A DNA stretch of 64,000 bases, taken from positions 2,371,001 to 2,435,000 of the forward strand of contig NZ_CP058648.1 of NCBI RefSeq assembly GCF_018141405.1, given 5' to 3'. The position numbers were made by a program, and so were the translations under genes. Source of the DNA: Serpentinicella alkaliphila. GTDB lineage: Bacteria > Bacillota > Clostridia > Peptostreptococcales > Natronincolaceae. Below the pieces are notes generated by a model, which ran no database searches, was not told the DNA's origin, and saw nothing but the letters and a program-made list of their open reading frames with translations. Below are positions 22,320 through 61,683 of the stretch, piece after piece (the first letter of the stretch is position 1; each line of letters begins with the position of its first letter).

Positions 22320-23147
22320 GCAGTAAAGCCATGAGTCTAAAAGCCAAAATCAGAAATCTAGCAAAACAAAAGGATATGTCAGCTCAAGTGGTTCTTCAAA
22401 ACTATATGTTCGAGCGTTTCTTAGAGAGGGTATCAAAATCCGAATACAAGGATAAATTCATACTGAAGGGTGGCATGCTAATAGCAGCTATAGTAGGGAT
22501 TGATAATCGAGCAACAATGGATATGGATGCAACCATAAAGAATTACCCACTGAATGCTGAATCACTATCAAAAGCGATTGCTGATATCTGTTCAGTAGCA
22601 CTAGATGACGATGTGAAATTTTCCTTTCTAGGAACTGAAGCAATAAGGGAAGATGATGCCTATGGTGGATTCCGGGCCAGTATACAAGCTGATTATGATA
22701 CGATCACTACACCAATGCACATTGATATAACGACTGGAGATGCCATAACGCCAAAAGAAATTTTCTACAGTTTTAAGAATGATTTTTGATGACCGGACTA
22801 TAGGTGTTTGGGCCTATAATATCGAAACAGTTTTAGCAGAGAAGTATGAGACGATCTTAAGGAGAGGTGAGCTTAGTACTAGACCGAGAGATTTCTATGA
22901 TATCTATATCTTGGCTAAAACTCAAGATTTTGATGAAGAAGTCTTTGCTGATGCAGTTAAAAAGACTTCAGCTAACAGAGGTACAACCCATATTTTAAAA
23001 GATGTTGAAAAAAGAATTGCTAGCATTGGAAGTAGCGAAGATTTAAAAAGACAGTGGAAGAAATACACTAGGAATTATCGTTATGCCGAAGATATACCCT
23101 ATGATTATATTATTGAAGCATTAAAACGATTGGCTTTAAATGTATAA
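22316..23147 (+). pseudogene. abiEii: AbiEii-type nucleotidyltransferase toxin, frameshifted
   Basis: Frame 1 (22316-22789) covers the catalytic core: LKGGMLIAAIVGIDNRATMDMDA is the nucleotidyltransferase GG...D-x-D region, split here at the usual positions. Frame 2 (22779-23147) carries MIFDDRTIGVWAYNIETVLAEKYETIL, RPRDFYDIYIL and the C-terminal helices. Removing one A at about 22778 (AAGAATG to AAGATG) would rejoin them to a protein of about 276 residues. As sequenced, the toxin is truncated after 157 residues and lacks the conserved VLAEKYETI helix. An intact antitoxin upstream of a broken toxin is a common decay state. Confidence 0.85.
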
Positions 23148-28942: not shown

Positions 28943-30452
28943 TTGAGTACACCATCAATAATTGTAAAAAGTTTTCAGAAAAAATGTTTTCATTATTTTT
29001 TAACTTCTTATAGGCTTGAGAGAAACTACGTATATCTTTCGAGATGAAATTTTTCCCAGAATCATTAATTAGATTTACATCATTCCAAATATATTGGAGT
29101 AATTTATTATATAACTGTTTATTATTATAATGATCATCATTTTCTTTAAACTTAATAAAAAATTGACCAATTTGTTTATCTTCTGGTAAAGACAGCTCCT
29201 CAACAATATATTTATTAAAAGATTGGTAAAAGTTACTCCATAGAATGTTATACTCCACACCGTTTTCAATAAGTTTAATTACAAAATCATTTAATAGTTG
29301 TCCAGTTGTATCTTTAATTGGATCTAAATCAACATATTCGAATTCGAATCTTCTCTTAAATGCGTTGTCCATAACAAAGACATTTTGGTCACTAGTATTT
29401 ACTGTACCGATTATATTTAAGTTTCTAGGTAAGTAGATGTCTTTACCTTCTGAAGGAAAAACTTCCGTCTGAATCAGATCATTTTTTATACTATATTCGC
29501 TTACTCCATCAGAATCTCTATCTAGTAGTTGAAAAATATCCCCAAAGATTGAAGCTATATTTCCTCTCGACATTTCCTCTAAAACAAGATAGACAGGTTG
29601 AGTCGGGGAACTAAAAGCAGTTTTCAAAGCCTGAGTAAAAATACCAGGTGTGAATTTATACTCAATAGTTTTATCACCATCATTATTGTGTACTCTAGGT
29701 AAAATACTTCCAACAAAATCAAAATAGCTATATTCGGAGTGGATAGTTGTTCTAAAGACAAACATATTATTTTGATTTGTGGGACTATAATCAGAATAAT
29801 CTTCTTGTATTATTTTAGTTGCTTGGAAGCTTTTACCTGTTCCTGGAGGACCAAAAAGTATTAATTGCAATCCGAAATTCTTAAAGTCCTCATGATTATT
29901 TAAGTTGATTTCATAATTTACTCTTTTTTCTTTTACATTAGCAATATCGTATTTAAATTCAATATCAATTTCAAAAGTTTTCTCAACAAGATTAACAGTG
30001 TAGTGAAGTAAATTGCCCTGTATATTATTATCATAAAGCTCTGAGAACCATTTACAACCAGGGTCATTATGTTTCTCATATTGAGATTTAAAAAGTTGGG
30101 GCTTATTATTAGTTGCGTGGTGTATTAGAAGCTTATTATTTACATTTTGATATTTTTCACCAATTAGTTTTAATATATTTTTGCCCAAGATTAATTTAAA
30201 TTCATTTACTAAAATATACTCATCTTTTGTCCTAGAACCCGAACCAACTATTTGATTGAATTTGATTACTTGTTTTTCTTTGCAAATATCAAAAAATTCT
30301 TTAGGAATATTATATGAAACTTGCGCACCAGCGTAATTATCTATTGCTTTATTATCCATCACTTCAATAATTTTATAAATATTATACTTATTTTTAGATT
30401 CTGATTTAGTTACAGTACTTTCATCCTCAATTAAATTCTCACAATAATGCAT
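28932..30452 (-). CDS. McrB-like AAA+ NTPase, LlaJI restriction subunit
   Basis: 506 residues. The N-terminal 190 residues are a variable domain likely to recognise DNA. The AAA+ module has Walker A LILFGPPGTGKSFQATKII (about 195), Walker B VYLVLEEMSRGNIASIFGDI, and the NTSD-containing sensor NIIGTVNTSDQNVFVMDNA followed by the arginine-finger FKRRFEFEYVD. These are the hallmarks of McrB-type GTPases that translocate DNA and activate the partner nuclease. ATG 30452 has GGGGGG upstream. It lies 34 bp after the second methyltransferase gene. Confidence 0.85.
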   Translation of the reverse strand: MHYCENLIEDESTVTKSESKNKYNIYKIIEVMDNKAIDNYAGAQVSYNIPKEFFDICKEKQVIKFNQIVGSGSRTKDEYILVNEFKLILGKNILKLIGEKYQNVNNKLLIHHATNNKPQLFKSQYEKHNDPGCKWFSELYDNNIQGNLLHYTVNLVEKTFEIDIEFKYDIANVKEKRVNYEINLNNHEDFKNFGLQLILFGPPGTGKSFQATKIIQEDYSDYSPTNQNNMFVFRTTIHSEYSYFDFVGSILPRVHNNDGDKTIEYKFTPGIFTQALKTAFSSPTQPVYLVLEEMSRGNIASIFGDIFQLLDRDSDGVSEYSIKNDLIQTEVFPSEGKDIYLPRNLNIIGTVNTSDQNVFVMDNAFKRRFEFEYVDLDPIKDTTGQLLNDFVIKLIENGVEYNILWSNFYQSFNKYIVEELSLPEDKQIGQFFIKFKENDDHYNNKQLYNKLLQYIWNDVNLINDSGKNFISKDIRSFSQAYKKLKNNENIFSENFLQLLMVYSNES

Positions 30453-30486
30453 ATATGTATACCCCCCATCAATAAATTCTTTTTAG

Positions 30487-31545
30487 TTACTTATTTTTCA
30501 TATTGATTAATTCTTCCTTTATTACTTTCGCCACCGCATATGCGAGTAAAGGAGGGACAGCATTTCCTATTTGTGTATATTGACTAGTTTTACTACCATT
30601 AAAATAATAATTATCAGGAAAGCTCTGAATTCGAGCTGATTCTCTTGCAGTAGGTATTCGATTTTCTTCGTAATGGAAATAGTTTCTATGACCACAATCT
30701 ATAGTATTACTTGGTAAGGTACTATCCATTCTTCTAAAAGCATTATTATAGTTTCTAACTTTATAGTATTCTGGTGGAAGGTCTCTAATGCTTCCACCAT
30801 CAGGAACTAAACTAATAATGCTAATTGTTTTCTCTGTATGTAATGTTTTTACGTGGTTTGTGACCTTATTGGAATTTTGTCTTACCCAATATTGAAATTT
30901 GTTTTTAGGCATACTTTGGTATTTTTCACTTTCTGTCTCTTCACGAAGAGTAGGTAAGTCGCTCAAAGCGTCTTTTGTTGTTACAAGCTCGCTTTTTTCA
31001 ATTCTGTCAAAATCAAAAAAAGTTTCATTAAAAATGTCATTTTTTAATCCTACGAAAAAAACTCTTTCTCTTGCTTGAGGGACTCCATAGTCAGATGCTT
31101 TAAGTAATTTATAGTTAACATTATAGCCTAAATTACCAAATCTATTGATTATATCATCTCTATATATTCCTTTTCCTAAACTCAATAAACCTTTGACATT
31201 TTCTAACACAAAGAAACTTGGCTTAACTATATCGACAAATCTAACATATTCTAGATATAAGTTGTTTCTAAAATCATTCGTATCTCTAGTACCGACAAGA
31301 CTAAAACCTTGACAAGGTGGTCCACCTATAATGCCTTCTACAGTGTTACTATTCAACAAGTGTAGAAGCTTTTCATTTGTATAGTCATGAATATCCATAC
31401 TTATACCAACTTTGTTTTCTCTATTATAATTATATGTAGCTATGGCATCAGGCCACTTATCCAATGCTAGTATTGATTCAAATCCTACTAGTTCGAATCC
31501 CTTACTTAGACCTCCAGCTCCACAAAATAAATCAATTATCTTCAT
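30487..31545 (-). CDS. DNA (cytosine-5) methyltransferase 2 of the operon
   Basis: 352 residues with the C5-methyltransferase motifs in order: I (IIDLFCGAGGLSKGFE), IV (GGPPCQGFS, catalytic Cys78), VI (FFVLENVKGLL), VIII (SDYGVPQARERVFFVG) and X near the C-terminus (QIGNAVPPLLAYAVAK). The target-recognition region lies between VIII and X. RBS GGAGG, ATG 31545. It is 4 bp after the other methyltransferase. Two methyltransferases are the rule for LlaJI-type systems, whose site is asymmetric so each strand needs its own enzyme. Confidence 0.95.
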   Translation of the reverse strand: MKIIDLFCGAGGLSKGFELVGFESILALDKWPDAIATYNYNRENKVGISMDIHDYTNEKLLHLLNSNTVEGIIGGPPCQGFSLVGTRDTNDFRNNLYLEYVRFVDIVKPSFFVLENVKGLLSLGKGIYRDDIINRFGNLGYNVNYKLLKASDYGVPQARERVFFVGLKNDIFNETFFDFDRIEKSELVTTKDALSDLPTLREETESEKYQSMPKNKFQYWVRQNSNKVTNHVKTLHTEKTISIISLVPDGGSIRDLPPEYYKVRNYNNAFRRMDSTLPSNTIDCGHRNYFHYEENRIPTARESARIQSFPDNYYFNGSKTSQYTQIGNAVPPLLAYAVAKVIKEELINMKNK

Positions 31546-31549
31546 AACT

Positions 31550-32614
31550 TTATCCTCCTAAAATGCTACTTAATATGGCACTAGCAATACATTCTGACAA
31601 AATAGCAGGAACTGCATTACCAACTTGTCTAAATTGATCTGTTTTACTTCCCAAAAAAACAAATGAATCAGTAAAGGTTTGTATTCTTGCAGACTCTCTT
31701 ACTGTAGGGACTCTATGAAATATTGGATGGAAGTAATTCATATGACCTGTATCAATTGTAATTGATGGCTTATTATAACTTAATCGTCTATACGCAGAAG
31801 AATGTCTATTATTCCTTTGTGTATCCCACATACTATCTGGAATATCTCTCCAATTCCCACCTTGCGGTACAAATTTCATTCTTTCAACAACTTGTTTACT
31901 ATGAGTGCTAATATCATGATTCGCAATTTGATCCATTTTTTCAGCATAATAATAGTTTTGAATTGGAGATCGCAAAATTTCCTTAAGTGTATTAAAATTA
32001 GCCTTGTTCTCTAACTGTTCCAAATCACCGATAGCGTCAAATACAGTTGTATCTGTAAATTTAGGTTGGATAGAATCAAAATTAAAAGCTTTATTCAAGT
32101 CATTTCTTATGCCAACAAAAAAAGCCCTCTTTCTTGTTTGTGGTACACCATAGTCATATGCATTCAAAACGCTTACGCTTACGTTGTATCCTAATTCGGT
32201 AGTTATCTCTAATATTTTGTTTTTTGCGTACCCATTATCTCTTGTTAAAATTCCTTGTACATTTTCTATTACAAATACGCTTGGTTTTATTAATCTCACA
32301 AATCTCATGTATTCTAAGAATAGTTTATTTCTAGGGTCATCTTCTATAGGCGTGTATCTATTAGCCGAACTAAATCCTTGACATGGTGGCCCACCAATAA
32401 TAACATCAATATCATTCAACTCATTTACGACAGTAATATCGCTTATTTCTTGTATATCACCACAATAATGGAATTTAGTATTAAAGTTGGCATTGTGCGT
32501 ATCCATAGCAGCCTTATTAAAGTCTACACCACCAGCTATAATAAAACCTGCATTTTTGAAGCCTAAGCTTAGGCCCCCAGCCCCACAAAATAAATCTAAA
32601 ACTTTATAACTCAA
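31550..32614 (-). CDS. DNA (cytosine-5) methyltransferase 1 of the operon
   Basis: 354 residues. Motifs: I (VLDLFCGAGGLSLGFK), IV (IIGGPPCQGFSS, Cys78), VI (VFVIENVQGIL), VIII (YDYGVPQTRKRAFFVGI), X (FRQVGNAVPAILSECIA). I chose TTG 32614 because AGGGGTGG lies 5 nt before it; a GTG three codons earlier overlaps that site. It is the first gene of the operon, transcribed leftward from the divergent region 32615-33038. The target-recognition region differs from its neighbour, so the two probably methylate different strands. Confidence 0.95.
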   Translation of the reverse strand: MSYKVLDLFCGAGGLSLGFKNAGFIIAGGVDFNKAAMDTHNANFNTKFHYCGDIQEISDITVVNELNDIDVIIGGPPCQGFSSANRYTPIEDDPRNKLFLEYMRFVRLIKPSVFVIENVQGILTRDNGYAKNKILEITTELGYNVSVSVLNAYDYGVPQTRKRAFFVGIRNDLNKAFNFDSIQPKFTDTTVFDAIGDLEQLENKANFNTLKEILRSPIQNYYYAEKMDQIANHDISTHSKQVVERMKFVPQGGNWRDIPDSMWDTQRNNRHSSAYRRLSYNKPSITIDTGHMNYFHPIFHRVPTVRESARIQTFTDSFVFLGSKTDQFRQVGNAVPAILSECIASAILSSILGG

Positions 32615-33038
32615 AGTCTCCACCCCTAAACGTGTAATTTCAATAAAAGTTAAAATGATTAAAATAGGTCAAAAGTAACGAGTATACATTTTTTCGTATA
32701 GAAAGTATGTATTCATGTTCATAATATTAAGTTTATAACTTTTGCAAATTATATTATAACCTTAAATGATAATTAATTCAATTATGCAATAGTGTCTAGT
32801 ATGTAATCATTTGACAAACATGAACCGTAATAAATGTTGAGTGGAGATTGATTTATATGAATACCCCTTTAATAATAGTGTCAAGAAATGTCGAAAGAAA
32901 CCAGGAGGTGTATAATTGATTATGTCGAATATTATTAAAGTTAAAATATATTAGAAGCTTTGTTACTGTAATGTTAATACTTTAAAAAATTTAGATTACT
33001 TCTAAATATAAATAAAAAATAAGAGAGGATATATATAT
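32615..33038. promoter_or_regulatory. Divergent control region of the two restriction operons
   Basis: 424 bp between the leftward methyltransferase/LlaJI operon and the rightward GHKL-Z1 operon. It is very AT-rich and has no ORF worth reporting. Promoters for both operons must lie here, but I could not fix -35/-10 pairs with confidence. A shared control region would couple methylation to both restriction modules. GAGAGGA before 33039 is the ribosome binding site of the GHKL gene. Confidence 0.5.
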
Positions 33039-34457
33039 ATGGAAGTTGTAAAACCCAATTTAAAAAACTTTGTTAAATCTCTAAGAGATATTGGATATAC
33101 GTTTGAAATTGCAATTGCAGACATACTAGATAATAGTATTAGTGCTAATGCTTCAAAGATAAAAATTTTTACAGTAGCAGAACCTGAACTAGTTTTTGCA
33201 ATTTTAGATGATGGTATAGGTATGTCTACAGAAGAATTAGTGAATGCAATGAGACTAGCAACTAAAAACCCAGAGAATGAAAGGGCAAAGGATGATTTAG
33301 GAAGGTTTGGGCTAGGTCTAAAAACTGCGTCATTCTCTCAATGTAAGAAGCTTACTGTTATATCAAAGAAAAACAATAAACTTTCTGCAAGACAATGGGA
33401 TCTTGATTTTATTGCAGAAACAGATGAGTGGTATTTACTTAAACCTGAAAATGAATGTTTAAAATCTTTGCCATTATTTGATGAACTTTGTGATCAGGAA
33501 CATGGGACACTTGTAATATGGCAATACATAGATGGATTAAAAAATAATAATTTTTCAGATAAAATTACTAAGCTAAGACAACATCTTTCATTAGTGTTTC
33601 ATAGATTTATCGAAGGAACAGATATGTTTAGGTCAGTATCTATAGAAGTTAACAATAACCCGATTAAAGCATTTAACCCATTTAACTCAAATCATCCAGC
33701 TACACAACAACTAGCGGTCGAAAAAATAAAACTCCATGATTCTACGATTAATATTCAACCTTATATCTTACCACATCATTCTAAGTTATCTCAACAGGAA
33801 TATGAAAGATATGCAACAGAGGACGGTTATACAAGATCACAAGGGTTCTATTTATATCGAGCTAATAGGCTCTTAATTTACGGTACTTGGTGGGGATTAC
33901 ATAAAGCAATTGATGCACATAAATTAGTCAGAATTAAAATAGATATACCGAATGAGCAGGATTCTTTATGGGGAATAGATTTAAAGAAATCAACAGCAAA
34001 TCCTTCTATGGAAATAAAGAATGATTTAAAGAGAATTATAAATCGTATTACTGAGAAAGGATCCAGACCATATACTGGTAGAGGAAGAAAAATTGATGAT
34101 AAGTCTACTACAATGTTTTGGAAGCTAGTTCCTATAAATGATGAGTTTAGATTCGAGATTAATGAGGAACACCCTCTTTTCAAAAAGTTGCTATTTGAAT
34201 TACCTAATGAAACAAGAGAATTATTTAATGTGTATTTAAAAGGTATACAAGCATACCTTCCTTTAGATTCAATACAAGCTCATTTACAACAGAACCCTCA
34301 TAAAGTTGTTCAAGAGACCGTTTTATCTAGGGAGGAGATAGATAAAATTGTAGAGCAGTTAAAGTTATCTGGATTAGACAGAAACTCAATTGATGAGCTA
34401 CTTAAAACGGAGATATTCAAGAATTATAGGGAGGCATTTGTTAATGATGCAAAGTAA
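33039..34457 (+). CDS. GHKL ATPase, MutL/MORC-like
   Basis: 472 residues. The Bergerat-fold ATPase motifs are clear: N box EIAIADILDNS (Glu23, Asp28, Asn32), G1 LDDGIGM (about 57-63), G2 GRFGLGLKTASFSQC (about 88-102). The middle region contains the second GHKL-side domain with KSTANPSMEI. Prokaryotic MutL/MORC-like ATPases in restriction operons with Z1 proteins were described by Iyer, Abhiman and Aravind (2008); eukaryotic MORC proteins are related. It likely clamps on DNA in response to ATP. It starts the plus-strand operon and overlaps the Z1 gene by 14 nt. Confidence 0.88.
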   Translation: MEVVKPNLKNFVKSLRDIGYTFEIAIADILDNSISANASKIKIFTVAEPELVFAILDDGIGMSTEELVNAMRLATKNPENERAKDDLGRFGLGLKTASFSQCKKLTVISKKNNKLSARQWDLDFIAETDEWYLLKPENECLKSLPLFDELCDQEHGTLVIWQYIDGLKNNNFSDKITKLRQHLSLVFHRFIEGTDMFRSVSIEVNNNPIKAFNPFNSNHPATQQLAVEKIKLHDSTINIQPYILPHHSKLSQQEYERYATEDGYTRSQGFYLYRANRLLIYGTWWGLHKAIDAHKLVRIKIDIPNEQDSLWGIDLKKSTANPSMEIKNDLKRIINRITEKGSRPYTGRGRKIDDKSTTMFWKLVPINDEFRFEINEEHPLFKKLLFELPNETRELFNVYLKGIQAYLPLDSIQAHLQQNPHKVVQETVLSREEIDKIVEQLKLSGLDRNSIDELLKTEIFKNYREAFVNDAK

Positions 34458-37068
34458 TAGTTATGAAAAAATCAAAGATTTTATTTACAAAAAACTTCAA
34501 GATGTAGATGGAGTATTACCTAGAGAGAAAATTGATTTTGAAATTGACAATACAAAAGCACTAATTTCGACTATTGGTTTAAAAAGTTTTGCACTGGTAC
34601 TTTCTATTGAAAATATTGAGCCATTAAACTCAGAAGATTGGAGTCAGATGAAGAGGGAATTAGAAACACATTTCAATGTTGAGATGGATAATGGTATAAT
34701 TATCCAAGGGGTGGAACAACAATCAAGAGATACAACTTGGCGGTCCGGTAAAGAGAAACAGAAAAATAAGTTGTATTATTGGAGTAGATATAGGGAATAT
34801 ATGAAAAAATCTTTACCACCAGAAGTAGTAAAAACAATTGACACTGATACAGATATAGTAATGGATAATATAGAAGATCCCTCATTTATCGAATTTTCTA
34901 GATATGGTATGGTTGTAGGTCATGTTCAGTCAGGAAAGACTGCTAATTATTCTGGTTTGGTATGTAAAGAAGCAGATGCGGGATATAAATTTATAGTGAT
35001 AATAGCTGGTGGGATGAATAATCTAAGAAATCAAACTCAAGTTAGGCTTAACGAAGCATTTGTAGGGCTAGATAAAGGGTTACCAGTTGGTGTAGGAAAG
35101 TTAGGGAATATCAAAGATATGCCTGTAAGTTTAACTACTACTGAACAGGATTTTAATAAACAGGATGCAAACAAGAATGCTCAAGCTTTAAATTTTGATA
35201 ATATTAGTAGTCCTGTTTTACTTGTAATTAAGAAGAATGCTAGCACATTATCAAATGTTATTAAATGGTTAGAAGCTCAATATAAAAATCAGATTTCAAA
35301 TCATGCAATGCTACTAATAGATGATGAATCTGATTACGCATCAATAAATACTAAAGAAGAAGATGATCCTACAATAATTAATAAAAGGTTGCGTAAGTTA
35401 TTAAGTCTGTTTAAAAAAAGTGTATATGTAGCTTATACCGCAACACCATATGCAAATATTTTTATTGATCATAGGACTGATACCGATGATTTAGGTAGAG
35501 ATTTATTCCCTAGAGATTTTATATACGCTTTAGATGCTCCTAGCAATTATTTTGGAGCTAGGAAGATATTTCTTGATACAGATAATAAACATATTGTTGA
35601 GATTGACGATTATAACGATATAATCCCTTTAGGTCATAAAAAAGAATCCGATCTCCCTACTCTGCCAGAAAGTCTATATGAGGCAATGCGTGTATTTATT
35701 ATAAATGTAGCTATTCGGAATTTACGTAAACAAGTAAATAAGCATAATAGCATGCTTGTTCATGCTACTAGATTTACAATGATGCATAAAAAAATAAGTA
35801 TACATATAGACACATATATAACTGAGATGAAGAAGGAGATTAATACATTTGGACGACTTAAAGATGCTATAGTATATAGCAGATTAATTATGAGTATAAA
35901 AGAAACCTATGAATTATGTTTTCAAGAGCTCAGTTATGAGTGGGAAACTGTATTAGAGGCAGTTTGCAACGTAATTGATAGTATTATTATAAGAGAAGTG
36001 CATCAGAGTACAAGTATTCCTCTGGAGTACAGAAAGGACATTCCGACCAATGCAATAGTTATCGGAGGTACAAGTCTATCACGAGGATATACTTTAGAAG
36101 GCTTAAGTGTCAGTTATTTTTTAAGAAATACTGTGTTTTATGACACGTTAATGCAGATGGCTAGGTGGTTTGGTTATCGGGAAGGTTATGAAGATTTATG
36201 TAGGATATATATGACTAAGTCAATGAGCGATGACTTTGCTCGTATAATTGAAGCTACAGAAGATTTAATTGATAACTTAAAAAGAATGTCTGAAAACAAA
36301 ATGACCCCTAACGACTTCGGATTGGCAGTACAGTATCATCCTGATAGCGCATTACAAGTAACTGCTAGAAACAAACAAAAGAATAGCAAAGATATATATA
36401 TTGAAATGAAGTTAGATGGACATATAAAAGAAACAGGTTGGCTACATAGTGATGAAGAAGTAAGAGCAAAAAATTTAGAAGTATTATTGAATACCGTTAA
36501 GGAGTTAACTAAGAGTAATAAGCATAAAACCGTCGGTAATGCACATTTATGGGAAGATGTATGTAGTGATTTTATAATAAAATTTTTAAATGGGTTTACA
36601 GTCTACTCATCGGACCCATTTGGTATTAATTCTCGAATGCCAATCGATTTTGTTAAGAAGTATGTTGAAGAGATAGATACTAAATGGGATGTTGCTTTAT
36701 ATAGTGGAAATGGTAAAAAACATCCTGTGACTGAATATATATATATATATAAAGAAGAAAGAATAATATCAAATGGTAACAAAGAAAAATATTTTGAGCT
36801 TCAAAAGAGACAAGTTTCATCAGGAAATGCTGAGGCCATAGTTCTTAAAGATAGAAAAAATATCAATAGTAATCGAAAGAGTATAAGAGAGCAGATGATA
36901 AAACCCTTATTAATGCTTCATATTTTGGAAACTATACCAGATGAGAAATTAGCTGCCTTTGGTGTAAGTTTTCCAGGGGGGATTAAAAGCAAGGGTCAGA
37001 CGGTTAAAATGAAAATTAACTCAGTATATATAGAGAAATTATTAACTGAGGAGGAGTCAGATGATTAA
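34444..37068 (+). CDS. Z1-domain ATPase/helicase-like protein
   Basis: 874 residues. Helicase-like motifs: Walker A GHVQSGKTANYSGLV (near 158), Walker B LLIDDESDYASIN (near 292), YTATPYANIFID, and the Z1 signature GGTSLSRGYTLEGLSVSYF followed by QMARWFGYREGYEDL. Z1 proteins are superfamily-2-like ATPases that occur with GHKL ATPases and nucleases in restriction-type operons. I chose ATG 34444 because GGGAGG lies 9 nt before it; the frame is open further upstream inside the GHKL gene. It overlaps the next gene by 8 nt. Confidence 0.9.
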   Translation: MMQSNSYEKIKDFIYKKLQDVDGVLPREKIDFEIDNTKALISTIGLKSFALVLSIENIEPLNSEDWSQMKRELETHFNVEMDNGIIIQGVEQQSRDTTWRSGKEKQKNKLYYWSRYREYMKKSLPPEVVKTIDTDTDIVMDNIEDPSFIEFSRYGMVVGHVQSGKTANYSGLVCKEADAGYKFIVIIAGGMNNLRNQTQVRLNEAFVGLDKGLPVGVGKLGNIKDMPVSLTTTEQDFNKQDANKNAQALNFDNISSPVLLVIKKNASTLSNVIKWLEAQYKNQISNHAMLLIDDESDYASINTKEEDDPTIINKRLRKLLSLFKKSVYVAYTATPYANIFIDHRTDTDDLGRDLFPRDFIYALDAPSNYFGARKIFLDTDNKHIVEIDDYNDIIPLGHKKESDLPTLPESLYEAMRVFIINVAIRNLRKQVNKHNSMLVHATRFTMMHKKISIHIDTYITEMKKEINTFGRLKDAIVYSRLIMSIKETYELCFQELSYEWETVLEAVCNVIDSIIIREVHQSTSIPLEYRKDIPTNAIVIGGTSLSRGYTLEGLSVSYFLRNTVFYDTLMQMARWFGYREGYEDLCRIYMTKSMSDDFARIIEATEDLIDNLKRMSENKMTPNDFGLAVQYHPDSALQVTARNKQKNSKDIYIEMKLDGHIKETGWLHSDEEVRAKNLEVLLNTVKELTKSNKHKTVGNAHLWEDVCSDFIIKFLNGFTVYSSDPFGINSRMPIDFVKKYVEEIDTKWDVALYSGNGKKHPVTEYIYIYKEERIISNGNKEKYFELQKRQVSSGNAEAIVLKDRKNINSNRKSIREQMIKPLLMLHILETIPDEKLAAFGVSFPGGIKSKGQTVKMKINSVYIEKLLTEEESDD

Positions 37069-38011
37069 TAATACTAATCCTTGGATTAAAATGTCTGTAT
37101 CTTCTCTAAGACGTATAGATGCTAAGGTAAATCACAATATTTTTTGGATTAAAGACTTTTATGGTAATTACGGTTTTTGTATTCATTCGAAAATTGGATT
37201 TAATATTGATGAAAATACAATTAAACTAAGAGGAATTTCCATATCAAAAAGAAACTCTAATTCCAATAATGGGATTGTAGAATTATATTTAATACTTAAT
37301 AATTACGAAGAATGGGAAATTTTTCTGACATTATGTGAAGATTTAGTTGCAGTTACAAAGAAATATATTTCTGATGAGTTAATGATTCATGCAGTTGAAA
37401 ATAGATTAAGACGTTGGCAGCAACTATTGAAAATGCAGATAAATAGAAGCTTAACCTTAGAAAAACAAATGGGTTTATTTTCAGAATTGCTATGTTTAAG
37501 AGATTTTGTATGTAAAAAAGTTGGAATTAAACAGGCTATTACCTCATGGGTTGGTCCTGAGTATGACAAGCAAGATTTTTTACTAGATGATATGGTAATA
37601 GAAGTTAAATCATACCGCTCCTCAAAAGGAGAATTTGCACATATATCTTCATTACATCAATTGAATAGTGAAAAGGAGCCGTTGTATTTATTTACATATT
37701 CGTTAACAACATCAGAAAATGGGTTAACTGTTGAAAATGTAATAGAAAGTATTAGATTAGTTTTAAAAAATGAGTCAAATGAAACAATAAATATGTTTGA
37801 AGATAGATTAATCGAATATGGTTATGTACCAGAATTAAATAATGAACCACTTAAGAAATTTATTTTAGATAAATTAAAGGTTTTTTGTGTAATGCCTTGT
37901 TTTCCTAAAATATCTTCAAATGTCGTAAGCTCACATATTGTATCAGTTAAATACACTATAGATTTAACCAAATGTAACGAATTTGAAATTAATATAGGGT
38001 CTTTGTTGTAA
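37061..38011 (+). CDS. PD-(D/E)XK motif protein (DUF4420-like)
   Basis: 316 residues. The nuclease core is GLFSELLCLRDF (conserved Glu), then WVGPEYDKQDFLLDDMVIEVKSY with Asp and the E-V-K triad (near 178), followed by ISSLHQL. This is the DUF4420 family of putative PD-(D/E)XK nucleases, found with Z1 and AIPR genes. It is the likely DNA-cleaving subunit of this module. RBS GAGGAGG; the ATG overlaps the Z1 stop. Confidence 0.85.
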   Translation: MINNTNPWIKMSVSSLRRIDAKVNHNIFWIKDFYGNYGFCIHSKIGFNIDENTIKLRGISISKRNSNSNNGIVELYLILNNYEEWEIFLTLCEDLVAVTKKYISDELMIHAVENRLRRWQQLLKMQINRSLTLEKQMGLFSELLCLRDFVCKKVGIKQAITSWVGPEYDKQDFLLDDMVIEVKSYRSSKGEFAHISSLHQLNSEKEPLYLFTYSLTTSENGLTVENVIESIRLVLKNESNETINMFEDRLIEYGYVPELNNEPLKKFILDKLKVFCVMPCFPKISSNVVSSHIVSVKYTIDLTKCNEFEINIGSLL

Positions 38012-38029
38012 GAAAGGGGGAAAATCGTA

Positions 38030-40063
38030 ATGATTAGTTTAAATGAATTTCATCAAGATTTCTTGCAATCAATTCTATCCGATGCTGAAAGCAGAGGACT
38101 AATGAAACCACAAGCATTTTTTGAAAATGTATGTGAAGAATTAGTAAGTTCAGGAGAATTAAGTAATAACTATACCGCAGCAGAATATATTAAGACAGGG
38201 ATGGAGGTATATGGCTACGATTTTGACCAAGAAAGAAAAATATTATCTTTACTAGTGCATCAATTTTTTCAAGAAGACGAGATTGAAACACTTACAAAAA
38301 GTCATATATATTCTAAATTTAACAGATTAAAATCTTTCTATAAGAAATGCACTTTAGGATTATATAAAGATCTAGAGGAAACCTCAGAGGCATTTTCAAT
38401 GGCATACAACATATTCAGATATAGACAAGAAAATAAATTTGATAAAATAAGGTTAATAATTCTAACTGATGGCAAATCAACAAGAACTCTATCGAACATA
38501 CCTTCAGAGTTAATTGACGATATAGTAACGGAATTTAGAGTTATTGATATTGAATATATCTATAAAATATTTTTATCTGAATATAACGATAGTGATTCTG
38601 AATTAGAAATTAAAATACCATGTTTGGAAATTTCTACATTAACAGATGAATATAAATCATATCTTACTGTATTAAACGGAAATTATATAGTTGACATTTA
38701 TGAAAAGTTCGGACAGAAGTTGTTTGAGCAAAACGTAAGAACATTCCTGCAGTTTAAAGGGAGTGTAAATAAGGGTATAAGGAACACTATAGAGTATAAA
38801 CCGGAGTTGTTTTTTGCATATAATAATGGTATTACTGCAACAGCAACGGATATTGAAATGGATAACTTTGGTAATATTAGCAAAATAGTTAATTTCCAAA
38901 TAGTTAACGGTGGACAAACAACATCAGCTATATATGCAGCAAAAAAAGTATCAAAACTTGATGTATCTAACGTAAATGTTCAAATGAAGCTATCAGTTGT
39001 TAAAGATAAAGAAAAACAAAATGATTTTGTGTCGAAAGTTTCTGAATACGCGAACACACAAAATAAAGTTAACAAATCAGACTTTTTTTCTAATAGCCCA
39101 TTCCATAAGGAAATTAAGAATTACTCTAAGCGAATTTGGGTTGCGGCAGTTAGTGGCTCACAACGCAGAACTCATTGGTTCTATGAAAGAGTAAGAGGAG
39201 AATACCTAAATGAACAAGCATATCTTACTAATGCGCAAAAGAAACAGTTTCAGTTAGAGAATCCTAAGGAACAATTAATTGATAAGACATTTTTATCAAA
39301 AAGTGAAAATGTATGGCTTCAGAAACCTGATATTGTATCAAGAGGTGCTCAGTATAGTTTTTCTACATTTGCAGAATATATAACTAATTTGTTAGAAAAG
39401 GATAATCTAGCTATTACGGAAAGTTATTTTAAAGACGCTATTTCAAGAGTAATTATGTTTAGATCTGTTGAAAAACTAGTATCTAAGTCAAGTTGGTATG
39501 ATGGAGGGTATAGAGCACAGATTGTTGCCTATACAATAGCCTACCTTTCTTATCTAGTTGAGAAAACTGGTAAACATTTAAATTTTAACTTGATTTGGGA
39601 GGAACAAAAACTACCTGATGCATTAATTGATATCCTAAAAGTAATTTCAAAATCTGTTTACGATGGAATTATTAATACCCCCGAAGGATCTGCTAACGTT
39701 TCTGAATGGTGTAAAAATTCTAGGTGTTGGGAATTAATAAAGCAAATGAAAGTAAATATAACTTTGGATAATCGGTTGTTAATTGACAAAGAAGACTTAA
39801 AATATAGTAAAAGAGAAGATAAGAAAGAAAAAAAATTAGAAAATAGTATTGAAATGCAGATACTTACTATCACTACTCCTAGTGAGGTATGGAATGCAAT
39901 GTATGATCATTATAAAAAATATGAATTTGTTTCAAGTATTACAAGAACCCAATTAGACATACTTGAAAAGATGGCTAAAAAAAGTTTAAATCCACCATCA
40001 GAAAAGCAGTCTAAGATTCTGTACCAATTATATCAACAAGCTGATACAGATGGTGTAATATAG
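38030..40063 (+). CDS. AIPR-family protein (abortive infection phage resistance)
   Basis: 677 residues with the AIPR signature: RTFLQFKGSVNKGIRNTI, FFAYNNGITATATDIE (near 261), NFQIVNGGQTTSAIY, then SEYANTQNKVNKSDFFSN. The family name comes from an abortive-infection protein; biochemical function is not settled. It is the last gene of the GHKL-Z1-nuclease-AIPR operon, 18 bp after the nuclease, with GGGGG upstream. The C-terminal 80 residues contain a charged KREDKKEKKLE linker. Confidence 0.85.
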   Translation: MISLNEFHQDFLQSILSDAESRGLMKPQAFFENVCEELVSSGELSNNYTAAEYIKTGMEVYGYDFDQERKILSLLVHQFFQEDEIETLTKSHIYSKFNRLKSFYKKCTLGLYKDLEETSEAFSMAYNIFRYRQENKFDKIRLIILTDGKSTRTLSNIPSELIDDIVTEFRVIDIEYIYKIFLSEYNDSDSELEIKIPCLEISTLTDEYKSYLTVLNGNYIVDIYEKFGQKLFEQNVRTFLQFKGSVNKGIRNTIEYKPELFFAYNNGITATATDIEMDNFGNISKIVNFQIVNGGQTTSAIYAAKKVSKLDVSNVNVQMKLSVVKDKEKQNDFVSKVSEYANTQNKVNKSDFFSNSPFHKEIKNYSKRIWVAAVSGSQRRTHWFYERVRGEYLNEQAYLTNAQKKQFQLENPKEQLIDKTFLSKSENVWLQKPDIVSRGAQYSFSTFAEYITNLLEKDNLAITESYFKDAISRVIMFRSVEKLVSKSSWYDGGYRAQIVAYTIAYLSYLVEKTGKHLNFNLIWEEQKLPDALIDILKVISKSVYDGIINTPEGSANVSEWCKNSRCWELIKQMKVNITLDNRLLIDKEDLKYSKREDKKEKKLENSIEMQILTITTPSEVWNAMYDHYKKYEFVSSITRTQLDILEKMAKKSLNPPSEKQSKILYQLYQQADTDGVI

Positions 40064-45231: not shown

Positions 45232-45316
45232 GCGGGTAAGGGCACGGAAAAACATTGTACGGGGTTAGAACCCGGAAAAACATTGTACCGGGTTAAGGCC
45301 CGGAAATAAATTGTGA
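45232..45316. repeat. 29-bp tandem repeats with palindromic cores
   Basis: Units at 45232-45260 and 45261-45289, plus a partial third to 45316; a diverged fourth may precede. Each has a palindromic core (GGGTTAGAACCC, CCGGGTTAAGGCCCGG) followed by GGAAAAACATTGTAC or a variant. The third unit ends in the -35 region of the SatD promoter, so this is a likely operator array. The 45086-45231 stretch to its left holds nothing I can name. Confidence 0.75.
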
Positions 45317-45339
45317 AAAAGTGGAAATTGTGATAATAT
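45311..45339 (+). promoter_or_regulatory. Promoter of the SatD/DUF3307 operon
   Basis: TTGTGA (45311-45316), 17-bp spacer, TAATAT (45334-45339), 25 bp before the start codon. The -35 box is the tail of the third tandem repeat. Confidence 0.6.
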
Positions 45340-45363
45340 TAGCATAGAAAGGATGTGGGAATA

Positions 45364-46227
45364 ATGGGCGATATAAATAGTGAAAGACTTCATATTGACG
45401 AATTAAAAAAAAGATTTGAAAAATATAATACGATTAGTGTAAATGATTTTAATGATTTTTACAAAGAAATTTATGGGAACATAAAAAGAAATACAGTAAG
45501 TTGGCTTATTTATAAACTAAAAAAAGGAAAAGTTATTAAGAATGTATCAAGAGGCCACTATAAGCTGGAAGATTTTGAAAAGATAATTACGACTGATTAT
45601 GTTGTCATAACGATGGACATTATAAAATCTTCTAACATGAACTATAATAAATTTAATGAAGAGTTAAATCAAAAAATAGAAGCCTTAAATATAGTGATTG
45701 CAAATACTTATAACTATGAAAGAGAATTCTTTATATCGCAAGGTGATGAAATACAAATATTATGTCCATTTGATAATAGAATAAGTTATTTGGTAATGAT
45801 TACATTATGTTATTTACACCCTTTTAAAGCACGATATGGAGTAAGCTTTGGTGAAATGGATAGTGAAATAAAAAGGAATTCTTGGGAGATGAATGGTCCG
45901 ATATTTTGGAATGCAAGAGATTGTTTGGAAAAACTAAAAAATAGTAAAGATTATGAGGGCTTAGTTGTAAGTGAGTACAATTATGCGGATAAACTTTGCA
46001 ATAATATATTACCACTAATAAATAAAGCTATTGGCAAGATTACGGATAAACAATGGGAGGCAATTAAGTTTGAATTATCCAAAACTGATTTAGATATTGC
46101 CTTAGCAGAATTAAACATTAGCAAAACTAGTTACTATGATAGAGTAAATGTAGCAAATATAAAGGAAATAATGAATTCTTTTAAATCAATAATTGAGATT
46201 ATGAAGGTTAGGAGGTTAATTGAATAA
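45364..46227 (+). CDS. SatD-family protein with N-terminal winged helix; cyclase-like core
   Basis: 287 residues. Residues 10-70 look like a winged helix (FNDFYKEIYG, NTVSWLIYKLKKGKVI, VSRGHYKL). Residues 76-230 match the SatD family and show class III nucleotide-cyclase-like features: VVITMDIIKSS with Asp85, FFISQGDEIQIL with Asp128 (43 residues later), YGVSFGEM and GPIFWNARDCLEKLK. In class III cyclases the two metal-binding aspartates are also about 44 apart and lie in DI and GD motifs. Residues 235-287 may be a second HTH (LDIALAELNISKTSYYDRV). ATG 45364 has AAAGGA upstream. The stop overlaps the next start by one base. Enzyme activity is inference. Confidence 0.7.
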   Translation: MGDINSERLHIDELKKRFEKYNTISVNDFNDFYKEIYGNIKRNTVSWLIYKLKKGKVIKNVSRGHYKLEDFEKIITTDYVVITMDIIKSSNMNYNKFNEELNQKIEALNIVIANTYNYEREFFISQGDEIQILCPFDNRISYLVMITLCYLHPFKARYGVSFGEMDSEIKRNSWEMNGPIFWNARDCLEKLKNSKDYEGLVVSEYNYADKLCNNILPLINKAIGKITDKQWEAIKFELSKTDLDIALAELNISKTSYYDRVNVANIKEIMNSFKSIIEIMKVRRLIE

Positions 46228-47042
46228 TGTTTACATTATTAATGTTAATCTCTCATACTATATCTGATTTTATTATACAAACTGATAGTATAGTCAATTT
46301 AAAGTCTAATCTACACTGGAGAGGGTTCTTATACCACGGAATTGGTCTTTCTATATCTTCAATCTGCATGATTTTACTGGCTAAAGCAAGTTACATACCT
46401 AAATTAATTAGTGTAATTTTTATAATTGTGCTAATTCATTTGTTAATAGACTTTTCAAAAGAAAAACTTCAAAGAATTATTACAGAATCAAATAATAATG
46501 AAAGGATTAAAAAAGCAGGTATAATTACGTTTGTGCTGGATCAAATACTTCATTTACTAGTAATTTTACTGTTAACAAATAATGTTACAATAGAATTTAA
46601 TGAGTTAAATGAAGTTTTATTAAGAATATTTAATCAAAATGGTTTAACTCAATTAGATTTAAAAATAATATTCATAATATTATATATTGCTTTCTCTGGA
46701 GCATATTTGATACCGTTAATATTTGACTTAATATATATGAATATTAGTGATTACAATAAAACTTTGAATGACATGCTTAAGGAAGATGTCAAGGATAGTG
46801 CCCATAAGTTTATTGATGAAGTGAAGGCAGGTAAATGGATCGGAATATTAGAAAGGATTTTGATAACATTTTTTATATATAATAATCAGTTAAATGCTAT
46901 AGGTTTTATTATTGCAATGAAATCATTAGCAAGATTTAAAATGTTAGATAGTAAAATCTTTTCAGAATACTATTTGATCGGAACTTTATTTAGTATTGTA
47001 TATACTTTTTTTGGTTTCCATATTCTTCAAAGAATACTTTAG
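46227..47042 (+). CDS. DUF3307-type membrane protein
   Basis: 271 residues with about six membrane segments: roughly 33-53, 57-75, 98-117, 145-167, 205-228 and 246-266. The N-terminus (LMLISHTISDFIIQTDSIVN) and LIHLLIDFSKEKL match the DUF3307 family as I know it. It starts at the A of the TAATG overlap with the SatD stop and has AGGAGG upstream, so the two are co-translated. No function is established; context suggests it responds to or is controlled by the SatD protein. Confidence 0.7.
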   Translation: MFTLLMLISHTISDFIIQTDSIVNLKSNLHWRGFLYHGIGLSISSICMILLAKASYIPKLISVIFIIVLIHLLIDFSKEKLQRIITESNNNERIKKAGIITFVLDQILHLLVILLLTNNVTIEFNELNEVLLRIFNQNGLTQLDLKIIFIILYIAFSGAYLIPLIFDLIYMNISDYNKTLNDMLKEDVKDSAHKFIDEVKAGKWIGILERILITFFIYNNQLNAIGFIIAMKSLARFKMLDSKIFSEYYLIGTLFSIVYTFFGFHILQRIL

Positions 47043-47102
47043 ATTATTAATTACTGAAATATATTGGAATAAATATGGCCTCTATAAAGTTACTAAATAG
47101 TT

Positions 47103-47492
47103 TTAAATCCAGTCTTTTAATACAACAAGTGAAATGTTTTTTTCTTTAGCAATTTTTATTGCATTCCTTGCTAAATGAAATGCTGGTCCATCAAGTTGAT
47201 TAACTGTTAATTCAAAATTATGTATTGTGATAACTCCAATACCAATCCCACAATAAATATTAAGATGGTTTAATTTTTTATTAAAAAATTCTATGATATT
47301 TTGATAATTACAAGGATACTTTAGTAGGCCTTGCCATTCATCACCTATAGTAATAATAAAATCGCTAGCTATAATACTGCTATATTCTTTATTCACCTCT
47401 TTTATAGTATCAATAAGTTTATATTGTACAGCTTCCCTATCAGGTAATTGTTTAGAATCCTTTATATCAAATATCATAACTAAATATACCAT
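47103..47492 (-). CDS. Second, minimal SatD-family protein
   Basis: 129 residues, only the cyclase-like core: YLVMIFDIKDSKQL with Asp9, FIITIGDEWQGLL with Asp51 (42 residues later), YCGIGIGVITI, and GPAFHLARNAIKIAKE. The order and spacing of these motifs match the larger SatD protein at 45364-46227. I chose ATG 47492; GGTGGTG lies just upstream. It is convergent with the DUF3307 gene and 61 bp from it. The 380 bp beyond its start (47493-47872) hold no gene. Confidence 0.7.
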   Translation of the reverse strand: MVYLVMIFDIKDSKQLPDREAVQYKLIDTIKEVNKEYSSIIASDFIITIGDEWQGLLKYPCNYQNIIEFFNKKLNHLNIYCGIGIGVITIHNFELTVNQLDGPAFHLARNAIKIAKEKNISLVVLKDWI

Positions 47493-58251: not shown

Positions 58252-58374
58252 AAATAAGGTTTACATAGAGTCTTTATGCCACAAACTGTAAATAGATTGA
58301 TACACACTTTGAAATCTGATAGATTAAAAGTAGTAAAATTAAGAATAATATTATACCTAATGGTGGGTGCTTAT

Positions 58375-59451
58375 ATGAATAGAATTATTAAAAGCTTTAT
58401 AGCAAGGTACGAAAATGAAAACAAAAAAAGATTTGATTTAAATACATTAGAGATGTTTATTATTAATCAATATAAAAGTGAATCGGAGTATATAAATAAG
58501 GGTGGTTATAGGGAGTTACACAAACAAATGATGGAGTTAGTGAATCAAGGCTGTATTAAAGAAATTAAATCTTCTAGCTACAATGGGCTAAATCCACCTT
58601 TGAAAGTAAGCTGGCAAATAATTAATAAAAAAGAGGATTCCAGGTGGGATAAATCTAAAATTTTAAAGTATAGCGATCTTCTAGATTTTAGTTATTATAT
58701 TAATAATCCATCCTTTCAGACCGATGGAGAATGGGAATATATTCAGAATATTTATAGGTTCCTAAAATCCTCTAGTAAAAGGGAAATAGTTAGCTTGGAA
58801 GAACGATGCTTAGAACTTTTTTATGATGAAAAATTCCTTATAAATAGGAAAGACACCACTAAAGGGAAGTATGGCATATTAAGTAGACTAAAGCTATCTT
58901 ATGTGGATTTAAGGATGAGAAAGTATGGAGAGATGTTTATCTATTGGAATAAAGGGGTTAATGATATTAAAAGAATTATAATATTAGAAAATCATTCAAC
59001 TTTCTTTGCTTTTAAAAGAGTGGTAGAGATTCACAAAGAAGTACTAGGCTTTAATCCTGATGCTTTAATTTATGGAGAGGGAAAGAAAATTGAAAGTAGT
59101 TTTTCTTTTCTCCAGGAAATAGCTAATACGTCAAATGTTGAAATACTATATTTTGGAGATATTGATTCCGAAGGATTTGGCATATATGCTAGACTAAAGG
59201 AAAAATATCCAAATATTAAAATGGAATTGTTTAAAACTGCCTATGATAAGTTAATTACCCTATGTAATAGGAACTACCCTTTGGATGGACAACAGAAAAA
59301 TATAAAATACTTTAACCTGTTTATTGATGAGATGAAGGACTACATAAATGAAGAGCAAATAAAAAAAATAGAATTTATTTGGAACAATGATTATAGAATT
59401 CCTCAGGAATTACTTAACTATGAATACTTATTGAAGGCGGTAAAATTATGA
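58375..59451 (+). CDS. jetD: Wadjet JetD, Toprim nuclease subunit
   Basis: 358 residues. A helical/winged-helix N-terminal half is followed by a Toprim domain: IIILENHSTFFAF with Glu near 204, then VEILYFGDIDSEGFGIYARL with the DxD pair near 261, as in DUF2220-type JetD. In Wadjet, JetD cleaves the DNA that the JetABC SMC complex has extruded, restricting closed circular plasmids. I chose ATG 58375 with GGTGGG upstream; the frame is open to 58276 but that part precedes the site. It overlaps jetA by 4 nt. Gene order D-A-B-C, with these domain families, points to type III. Confidence 0.88.
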   Translation: MNRIIKSFIARYENENKKRFDLNTLEMFIINQYKSESEYINKGGYRELHKQMMELVNQGCIKEIKSSSYNGLNPPLKVSWQIINKKEDSRWDKSKILKYSDLLDFSYYINNPSFQTDGEWEYIQNIYRFLKSSSKREIVSLEERCLELFYDEKFLINRKDTTKGKYGILSRLKLSYVDLRMRKYGEMFIYWNKGVNDIKRIIILENHSTFFAFKRVVEIHKEVLGFNPDALIYGEGKKIESSFSFLQEIANTSNVEILYFGDIDSEGFGIYARLKEKYPNIKMELFKTAYDKLITLCNRNYPLDGQQKNIKYFNLFIDEMKDYINEEQIKKIEFIWNNDYRIPQELLNYEYLLKAVKL

Positions 59452-60920
59452 TAGAGAGTGGCTTTTTTAATAGGATGAAAAAATTCCAAGCAATTCGTAT
59501 GTTAGGAACGGGAATGGACCTAGGAAATTTAAATGAATATGCCTATGAAATATGTTTTCTTTTAATTCAAAACATTTTCACTAGAGAATTAAGAGAAAAT
59601 CCTAATCGAACTAGAGATGATATGTTATTTATTACTGACAAGATTATTAGGGATATGGATTTAGAAGTAAATCGAGATATTGTTGAAAGAATAGTTGATG
59701 GAACACTTTGGTATAGGGACCCCAGTAAACAGGAAGCATTCCTCACTAAAATCTTTAACGAGGAACAAAGAAAAAAAGAAGATTATACATTCAGGTATTT
59801 TAAAGTGGATAGAGAACATAGCCACTGGGAACAGGGTGGATCAACAGTCTATATGTTGTCCGAAGAAAGCCAAGAGATGATTTTTATTACTAGAGAAATT
59901 CTAGAGGAATTTGGATTTGACCTAGAGCAGTTTTACACTCTTCAATTAATTAAAACTGGGAACTTTTCAAAGGCTAGAGATAGTATAGATCATCTTATAT
60001 CAAGAGTGCGAGTACTTATTAATAGAGAAAAGGATTATAAAAGGGATATTCTAAGAGACCCACAAAATATATTTTTCGATAGGAGCATTCGTGGTAAAAA
60101 AACAGAGGAGGAAATAAAGGAGCAGTTTGAAGAGGAACAAAAGGTTTTTCATAACATGCTTTCATGGAGAAGCAGATATGATTCTCTACCAGAGGAAAAA
60201 AAGCGAGATGCAGAATTTATGTTCACCAATTTAGAGAGGGCTAGGGCATTACATAATAGTCTTGCTAACTATGTTATCCAAAATCTTGCCTTGGAGTTAG
60301 AGATAAGGGTAAAGTATCCTGAAACTTTCTGGAATATTTCAAATTTTAGTTTTAAGAAGGATATTTGGCAAAACCATATAGTCAAAAATGGACTTAGAGA
60401 AATAAATGATTTGGAAAAGGTAGTTTCTCAATTATTTTCACCACAAATCGAATTTATCTACCCCCTAGATTGGGCTTGGGCTGAGCAAAGGGTGCAGTAT
60501 AAAAAGAAACAAAGAAAAACTCTAGATATTACTGAACAGGATGATTGGATATTTAAAGAAACGGATTGGGAATTAATTGAGGACCTATATGAAGAGATAT
60601 TTGTTGGACTTTTAGAAAAAGGGAGTTTTTCTATTTTAGAGTTAAATTTAAAAGAAGATGAAGAAAAGATTAAGTGGTTAAGTCAAGGCGAGAATATTGA
60701 CTTATTTATGATGTTTGTAATTTCAGATGTTACACTAGACTATAATTATGTTGGAGAAGACGAAAGAATGAAATTGTTCAAACGTCTATGTAATAGGGAT
60801 TCTAAATTTAGATTACTTAATAATAAAAGAATACTAACAAGGATAGAGGATACAGAGGATGTTTTTAGGTGGAATGAACTATTTATTTCACCCTATACCA
60901 TATATATTGAGGGGGCATAG
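59448..60920 (+). CDS. jetA: Wadjet JetA, kleisin-type subunit
   Basis: 490 residues resembling the JetA family formerly called DUF5716, found in type III Wadjet. It begins SGFFNRMKKFQAIRMLGTGM, and has the long helical middle region (about 190-270) and winged-helix parts expected for the MukF/kleisin-like subunit that bridges JetC heads. Its start overlaps the jetD stop (ATGA). Function is by analogy with studied Wadjet systems. Confidence 0.85.
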   Translation: MIESGFFNRMKKFQAIRMLGTGMDLGNLNEYAYEICFLLIQNIFTRELRENPNRTRDDMLFITDKIIRDMDLEVNRDIVERIVDGTLWYRDPSKQEAFLTKIFNEEQRKKEDYTFRYFKVDREHSHWEQGGSTVYMLSEESQEMIFITREILEEFGFDLEQFYTLQLIKTGNFSKARDSIDHLISRVRVLINREKDYKRDILRDPQNIFFDRSIRGKKTEEEIKEQFEEEQKVFHNMLSWRSRYDSLPEEKKRDAEFMFTNLERARALHNSLANYVIQNLALELEIRVKYPETFWNISNFSFKKDIWQNHIVKNGLREINDLEKVVSQLFSPQIEFIYPLDWAWAEQRVQYKKKQRKTLDITEQDDWIFKETDWELIEDLYEEIFVGLLEKGSFSILELNLKEDEEKIKWLSQGENIDLFMMFVISDVTLDYNYVGEDERMKLFKRLCNRDSKFRLLNNKRILTRIEDTEDVFRWNELFISPYTIYIEGA

Positions 60921-60924
60921 AAGT

Positions 60925-61683
60925 ATGAGCTATACAAATGAAGATATTAGAAAAGCAAGTGAATTATTTTTCTATTTATTAAGCAAGAGGATTGTCCCAG
61001 CAAATGATGTATTGGCAAGCCAATACTATGAAAATAACGAGATTAGTGAAATTATTAAGAATATGGCGGAGGAAGGTGGCTTAAGAGTTCTTGCAACTAG
61101 ACAAAATTTACACTTAGTAGCCAAGGGGGAAAGTTCTATATTTGCCACTACTTATTCACATATGAAGGAAAGATATACTAGATTACAAAGAAAAAGACAT
61201 TTTTACTTAGCAAATATTATTATTTGTATTTATTTGGCTGAAATAGATAGGGATAATAGGTTTTCATTTAGAATTGAGGACGCAGGGATTTCATATTTTA
61301 AATTAGAGGAAATTATTACAAATACTTTAGAGGCTTGGAAAAAGCGGAATGAACAGGAAGAAGGTTTTTCACGGGACTTTGCCATAGCCTTAGATGAAAT
61401 TTACCATCTTTGGATGGTCGAAATGTCTCATTCCAAGGAGAGTAAAGACGGTGTAGGATTTAGTACGGCATCTAATACTAGACTGGGCTTTATAAATGAG
61501 GCTTTAAAGCCATTGGAGCAGGAAAATTTAATAATAAATTTGACTCGTGAAAGTAGAATTATCCCTAAGGAAGAGTTATACGAAAGACTTGAGCATCTTT
61601 ATCATGGGGGAGACAGATATGAGGAAATAATTGAGCTAATTAAATATGAAAGAAGGGATAATGAAGATGCCAAAACTAGCTAA
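60925..61683 (+). CDS. jetB: Wadjet JetB, KITE-type subunit
   Basis: 252 residues of the DUF6063-like family. ATG 60925 lies 4 bp after the jetA stop with GGGGG upstream. Winged-helix features: SELFFYLLSKRIVPANDVLA, EEGGLRVLATRQNLHLVAKG. It corresponds to the MukE/KITE subunit that binds JetA and DNA. It overlaps jetC by 17 nt. Confidence 0.85.
   Translation: MSYTNEDIRKASELFFYLLSKRIVPANDVLASQYYENNEISEIIKNMAEEGGLRVLATRQNLHLVAKGESSIFATTYSHMKERYTRLQRKRHFYLANIIICIYLAEIDRDNRFSFRIEDAGISYFKLEEIITNTLEAWKKRNEQEEGFSRDFAIALDEIYHLWMVEMSHSKESKDGVGFSTASNTRLGFINEALKPLEQENLIINLTRESRIIPKEELYERLEHLYHGGDRYEEIIELIKYERRDNEDAKTS

Follow-up and report, generated by a model that had tools for sequence, protein, structure and literature searches.

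SatD proteins with a predicted palm fold and a DUF3307 membrane protein form a candidate signalling module in Serpentinicella alkaliphila

In Pycsar, where a PycC cyclase making cCMP or cUMP upon phage infection is paired with a PycTM or PycTIR effector, the signal activates the effector. The Panoptes locus optSE comprises the mCpol protein OptS and the 2TM-beta effector OptE, and it shows that a palm protein close to SatD in size can work by an inhibitory logic (PMC12657218). For the families studied here, SatD and DUF3307, the open-access papers on DUF3307 and on the SatD family protein give no mechanism. We found no description in the open-access literature of the SatD-DUF3307 pair, of a cyclase fold in SatD or of DUF3307 in Pycsar proteins, and an older mention of SatD as a cyclase is possible. 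We analyzed a 64,000-nucleotide stretch of the S. alkaliphila genome (the window), in which a large SatD protein (SatD-L), a DUF3307 protein and a small SatD protein (SatD-S) form one module:

45233-45316, forward strand: three tandem copies of CGGGTTARRRCCCGGAAAAACATTGTA, 28 bp apart (starts 45233, 45261 and 45289), a candidate operator of the SatD-L/DUF3307 operon.
45364-46227, forward strand: SatD-L, 287 amino acids, with a winged helix, a palm (SatD) domain and a C-terminal HTH-like region (PF16264, E 1e-14).
45382-45576, forward strand: AbiEi-like winged helix of SatD-L (PADLOC AbiEi, Mrr_N), modelled at low confidence.
45616-45618, forward strand: codon of SatD-L Asp85, putative metal ligand 1 (DIxxS), invariant in the alignment.
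45745-45747, forward strand: codon of SatD-L Asp128, putative metal ligand 2 (GDE), invariant in the alignment.
46227-47042, forward strand: DUF3307 membrane protein, 271 amino acids, translationally coupled to SatD-L (PF11750, E 5e-17).
47103-47492, reverse strand: SatD-S, 129 amino acids, a stand-alone minimal palm domain, convergent and lacking an HTH (PF16264, E 1e-20).
47340-47342, reverse strand: SatD-S Asp51 of GDE, putative metal ligand 2, invariant.
47466-47468, reverse strand: SatD-S Asp9, putative metal ligand 1, invariant.

This module shares several features with Panoptes: a stand-alone palm protein of ~14 kDa, two active-site aspartates, an operon with a membrane protein and a proposed inhibition. 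Nonetheless, the window proteins match SatD and DUF3307 and have no mCpol or 2TM-beta match in Pfam or PADLOC. OptE has a soluble domain that is missing from DUF3307, a polytopic helical protein, and most SatDs carry a DNA-binding HTH. A nucleotide or phage role of SatD-DUF3307 is putative. Judged by these profile matches, membership of the module in Panoptes is not supported. The same holds for Pycsar: both have a cyclase-fold protein beside a membrane protein, and DUF3307 lies C-terminal to PycTM in two genomes, but the SatDs match neither PF00211 nor PycC and the window has no PycTM domain (Pfam, PADLOC). In addition, the gene-loss pattern of SatD-DUF3307 suggests restraint.

In the streptococcal sat locus (satD-satE), both families occur in this order too (for instance, ffh-SatD-DUF3307 in L202), and satE presumably encodes the DUF3307 protein. 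The window differs by the winged helix on SatD-L and by the additional minimal SatD-S. Clusters of a CHASE2-adenylate cyclase, a GAF-HD-GYP protein and DUF3307 likewise place DUF3307 beside a nucleotide cyclase, but this is a true class III cyclase, DUF3307 is often half-length and SatD is missing. Finally, the N-terminal winged helix of SatD-L is AbiEi-like, as in AbiE type IV toxin-antitoxin systems, whereas the partner of SatD-L is a DUF3307 membrane protein and not an AbiEii nucleotidyltransferase toxin.

A preliminary description of this DNA, made from its letters, had assigned both proteins to SatD, and their PF16264 scores of 55 and 75 bits exceed the curated cut-off of 29 in a Pfam scan. 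The motif order and acid spacing that it listed are also in place: DIxxS and GDE are followed by YGVSFGEM in SatD-L or CGIGIGVI in SatD-S and then by GPxFxxAR, with 43 residues between Asp85 and Asp128 in SatD-L and 42 between Asp9 and Asp51 in SatD-S. The winged helix that it saw on the larger protein resembles the N-terminus of the AbiEi antitoxin (PADLOC, 2.5e-11); the match to Mrr_N (4e-4) is under the Pfam cut-off. It had made the conservation of the two aspartates across homologues a point to check, and both are near-invariant, the first being kept in 130 of 131 and the second in all 132 of the non-redundant SatD relatives.

Co-translation of SatD-L and DUF3307, also proposed from the letters, agrees with the TAATG at 46225-46229, in which the DUF3307 start overlaps the SatD-L stop, and with an AGGAGG ahead of it. 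SatD-S lies convergent beside DUF3307 as described, and the terminator scan found no terminators at the locus. The CGGGTTARRRCCCGGAAAAACATTGTA repeats may be the operator of the SatD-L/DUF3307 operon: all three matches in the 3.26-Mb genome lie upstream of SatD-L, and a Tepidibacter metagenome-assembled genome (MAG; L084) has two copies at the equivalent place before its SatD-L, although the chromosomal site differs.

In order to assess the fold of SatD, we built an AlphaFold2 model on the SatD-L alignment, in which the core has a pLDDT of about 80-98. The 50 best PDB matches of the core in VIA-align (Z 9.6 to 8.2) are all GGDEF, class III cyclase, Cas10 or GTP cyclohydrolase III structures. 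Among the 50 best matches in Foldseek, all but one are palm cyclases or polymerases (GGDEF, class III, Cas10), with E no better than 0.006. The best match in a viral structure library is a phage diguanylate cyclase, and it is weak. At the sequence level, SatD had only chance or HTH matches among PDB chains. The model thus points to SatD as a member of the superfamily of GGDEF, class III cyclase and Cas10 proteins, with a palm fold and both metal aspartates kept, which bears out the suggestion that the fold would be that of the cyclase palm.

The narrower claim, that SatD has the core of class III cyclases, stood only in part. The palm fold and both aspartates are present, but class III is not singled out because GGDEF (Z 9.6), Cas10 (9.3) and class III (8.9) all fall within the differences of less than 1 that we counted as ties. 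The profile-profile comparison that had been proposed did not back this claim either: hhalign with shallow and deep alignments gave P of 0.04-0.09 against class III cyclases, which is not significant, although the shallow alignments are in the right register and the DUF3307 control gave no alignment. Neither SatD protein matches PF00211, the Pfam family of class III cyclases. Asn-x3-Arg is the transition-state motif of class III cyclases, and it is absent from the SatD alignment, where an aromatic residue (Phe or Tyr) stands four positions ahead of the conserved Arg. Given the non-significant hhalign result and the missing motif, we do not file SatD as a class III cyclase. A fold in common is no proof of activity; we infer that SatD may make a (cyclic) nucleotide from NTPs.

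The window DUF3307 protein scores 62.6 bits against PF11750 (curated cut-off 23, Pfam scan). It had been described as a six-helix membrane protein. It is a membrane protein with some five to six segments of strong hydrophobicity, but its model (pLDDT 88) has about 12 helices. Its conserved motifs are H-x3-DF-x2-Q, H-x3-D-x2-K, DQ-x2-H, G-x2-IG-x-LER and AKSxAR. Foldseek found no relative in the PDB, and the best VIA-align Z of 6.5, to ABC transporters, corresponds to helical-bundle background.

To see how often the genes occur together, as the preliminary description had proposed, we scanned one genome per species with SatD-S, which gave 34 loci. About 30 Clostridia have the three-gene layout of the window, in which SatD-S faces DUF3307 and SatD-L in convergent orientation. 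In two Bacilli, SatD-L, SatD-S and DUF3307 all run in one direction. Because the layout recurs in these Clostridia at unrelated locations, it is not due to chance. More widely, SatD and DUF3307 are neighbors throughout Bacillota and also in haloarchaea, including haloarchaeal plasmids. A Pfam DUF3307 match was located within 2.5 kb of SatD at 26 of 30 places in one set (Fisher on genomes, p 1e-28) and at 55 of 78 in another (p 7e-41), and a custom HMM detected DUF3307-like partners for several of the remaining places. With the recurrent layout and these p values, chance adjacency of SatD and DUF3307 was rejected. In the tree, the SatD-S sequences (n = 30) form a monophyletic clade with support 100/99, while SatD-L of the window and of Tepidibacter stand apart on a long branch; SatD-L therefore appears to have been exchanged.

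DUF3307 also occurs in genomes where it has no SatD neighbor. For 12 of 18 such genomes, a class III cyclase lies within 6 kb of DUF3307. All 18 genomes together hold only 16 class III cyclase domains, and our own arithmetic puts the chance expectation at about 0.07. Several of these DUF3307 genes belong to the clusters with a CHASE2-cyclase and a GAF-HD-GYP protein. In two genomes, a PycTM protein carries DUF3307 as its C-terminal portion. One of these fusions neighbors a PycC cyclase and an E2-like protein, and the other neighbors E1-E2 and JAB genes. This proximity to class III cyclases is the strongest indirect support for a cyclase-like role of SatD.

We used gene decay to examine the relation between the two partners. 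In one genus, which by its ffh and topA contexts appears to be Streptococcus, SatD is present in 48 of 108 species, DUF3307 in 48 of 108 and both in 47. DUF3307 is broken or missing at 9 of the 47 loci read. SatD is broken at three of these nine and at none of the 38 loci with intact DUF3307 (Fisher p 0.005, a value weakened by the few events, the related species and the draft genomes). Outside that genus, DUF3307 is broken and SatD intact in L070, L215 and L229. Two MAG loci, L087 (which keeps SatD-S) and L143, show a broken SatD with intact DUF3307, opposite to what restraint would give.

In a Tn-seq re-analysis, satD was the single accessory gene among the S. pyogenes genes scoring in the top quarter for essentiality, and it is present in 178 of 249 genomes (PMC11323703). 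Since only one accessory gene is in this class, a DUF3307 partner of equal distribution would not be essential. An accessory gene whose loss is not tolerated by the genomes that have it behaves like the gene of an antitoxin or of an inhibitory synthase. Polar effects could also be the source of the Tn-seq result. Together, the loss pattern and the published essentiality fit a SatD that restrains DUF3307 rather than an activation of the Pycsar type.

We therefore favor, at close to an even chance, a two-component signalling module in which a nucleotide-making SatD restrains a DUF3307 membrane effector. SatD would make, or at least bind, a nucleotide, and its DNA-binding parts would probably act on the upstream repeats to control the operon. 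DUF3307 would be a membrane effector that harms the cell if unrestrained, and the SatD product, or SatD by direct contact, would hold it off. In the window there would be two copies of the palm, one in the regulator-type SatD-L and one as the minimal SatD-S, and the two might form a heterodimer. If SatD or the nucleotide were lost (for example, to a phage nucleotide sponge or under other stress), DUF3307 would be released. This restraint would follow the logic of Panoptes or of an antitoxin, carried out by other protein families. We note that phages and non-defence clusters also carry DUF3307, and toxicity of the protein is therefore not a given.

The reading originally put forward was immunity with the layout of Pycsar. 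In such a system, phage infection would lead SatD to make a cyclic nucleotide that activates DUF3307, and the membrane would be permeabilized or degraded. The locus was said to lie between defence genes, and in the window it does:

27725-40063: MzaB-E, a pair of C5 methyltransferases, and an McrB-like ATPase next to its restriction-type partner.
58276-61683: Wadjet genes, arranged as JetD3, JetA3, JetB3.

This setting, the sporadic distribution, the palm fold of SatD with both aspartates and the PycTM-DUF3307 fusion beside PycC and an E2-like protein would all suit such immunity. Nevertheless, no Pycsar model in PADLOC matches the window proteins, and the idea that SatD-DUF3307 pairs lie near defence genes across genomes failed: the 135 flanking proteins of 18 loci elsewhere include no recurrent defence genes. 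The relatives sit among housekeeping genes, and the defence surroundings are specific to the window. We thus rejected a defence-island location as a general property of the module, and the location lends no support to a general defence role. As the loss pattern and the essentiality of satD also point to restraint and not to activation, we consider immunity of the Pycsar type quite unlikely here, even though the fusions exist. In the same window, AbiEi-like and AbiEii-like genes occur at 21726-23147, the AbiEii-like gene being split in two frames.

The housekeeping contexts raise another reading, an ordinary stress-signalling operon in which SatD is a nucleotide-dependent HTH regulator and DUF3307 a membrane sensor or transporter that would tune it, with neither toxicity nor immunity. 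The streptococcal loci have fixed housekeeping positions after ffh or topA, and DUF3307 also accompanies CHASE2-cyclase and HD-GYP sensors. The S. mutans sat (secretion and acid tolerance) genes are tied to acid tolerance, as cited in PMC11323703. Against this, the presence is patchy (48 of 108 species) with strict co-loss, DUF3307 has repeatedly decayed while SatD was retained, which is unlike equal partners, and an essential gene that is missing from 29% of strains is ill-suited to a housekeeping role. We regard a purely stress-signalling operon as unlikely.

A plain toxin-antitoxin pair would suit the loss asymmetry and the essential yet accessory satD. SatD would bind DUF3307 and repress the operon, its palm being a catalytically silent binding domain; the HTH in SatD, the AbiEi-like winged helix in SatD-L and the phased upstream repeats would suit this role. 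Yet the catalytic-type residues are near-invariant in both SatDs and the other partners of DUF3307 are true nucleotide cyclases, which suggests that a nucleotide matters. We consider a plain toxin-antitoxin pair very unlikely.

Extending the favored restraint by SatD beyond this locus, SatD-DUF3307 might be a widespread guard system of bacteria and haloarchaea, in which a constantly made nucleotide restrains a membrane executioner that fires upon its loss. Its palm would lie outside the mCpol and CD-NTase families, and it would come in forms with one synthase or two (SatD-L and SatD-S). We find this broader reading possible but rather doubtful.

The predicted nucleotide-cyclase fold of SatD, together with DUF3307 beside cyclases, provides one concrete hypothesis for two families listed as unknown. 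Restraint of DUF3307 by SatD would explain how satD can be essential although 29% of S. pyogenes genomes lack it. If the nucleotide were confirmed, Streptococcus and Clostridium would hold a signalling or guard module that is missing from current defence catalogues.

Some further variants were observed among the loci. At L081 (8886-11168), a protein of 760 amino acids has a SatD domain and, after it, a long stretch of tetratricopeptide-like repeats, and the gene adjoins DUF3307. Diverged SatD-like proteins without a Pfam match lie beside DUF3307 at L190 (3328-4092) and L197 (431-1192), and they resemble SatD-L of Alicyclobacillaceae. In several Bacillota, GAF-HD-GYP and DUF3307 occur together, mostly with a CHASE2-adenylate cyclase, at L183, L184, L185, L187, L191, L199, L200 and L201. 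The two PycTM-DUF3307 fusions (L188, 1-2309; L196, 1287-4537) represent an apparently undescribed architecture of a Pycsar/CBASS effector. At L194 (3279-3800), a cNMP-binding-like protein, recognized by eye, adjoins a short DUF3307.

Searches of viral contigs gave no relative of SatD, with SatD-L lacking a match in phages, and no relative of the window DUF3307. A DUF3307-like membrane protein is present in 77 phage records, mostly of Streptomyces phages (H11-H20; phrog_2470), and such a phage copy possibly interferes with the DUF3307 of the host.
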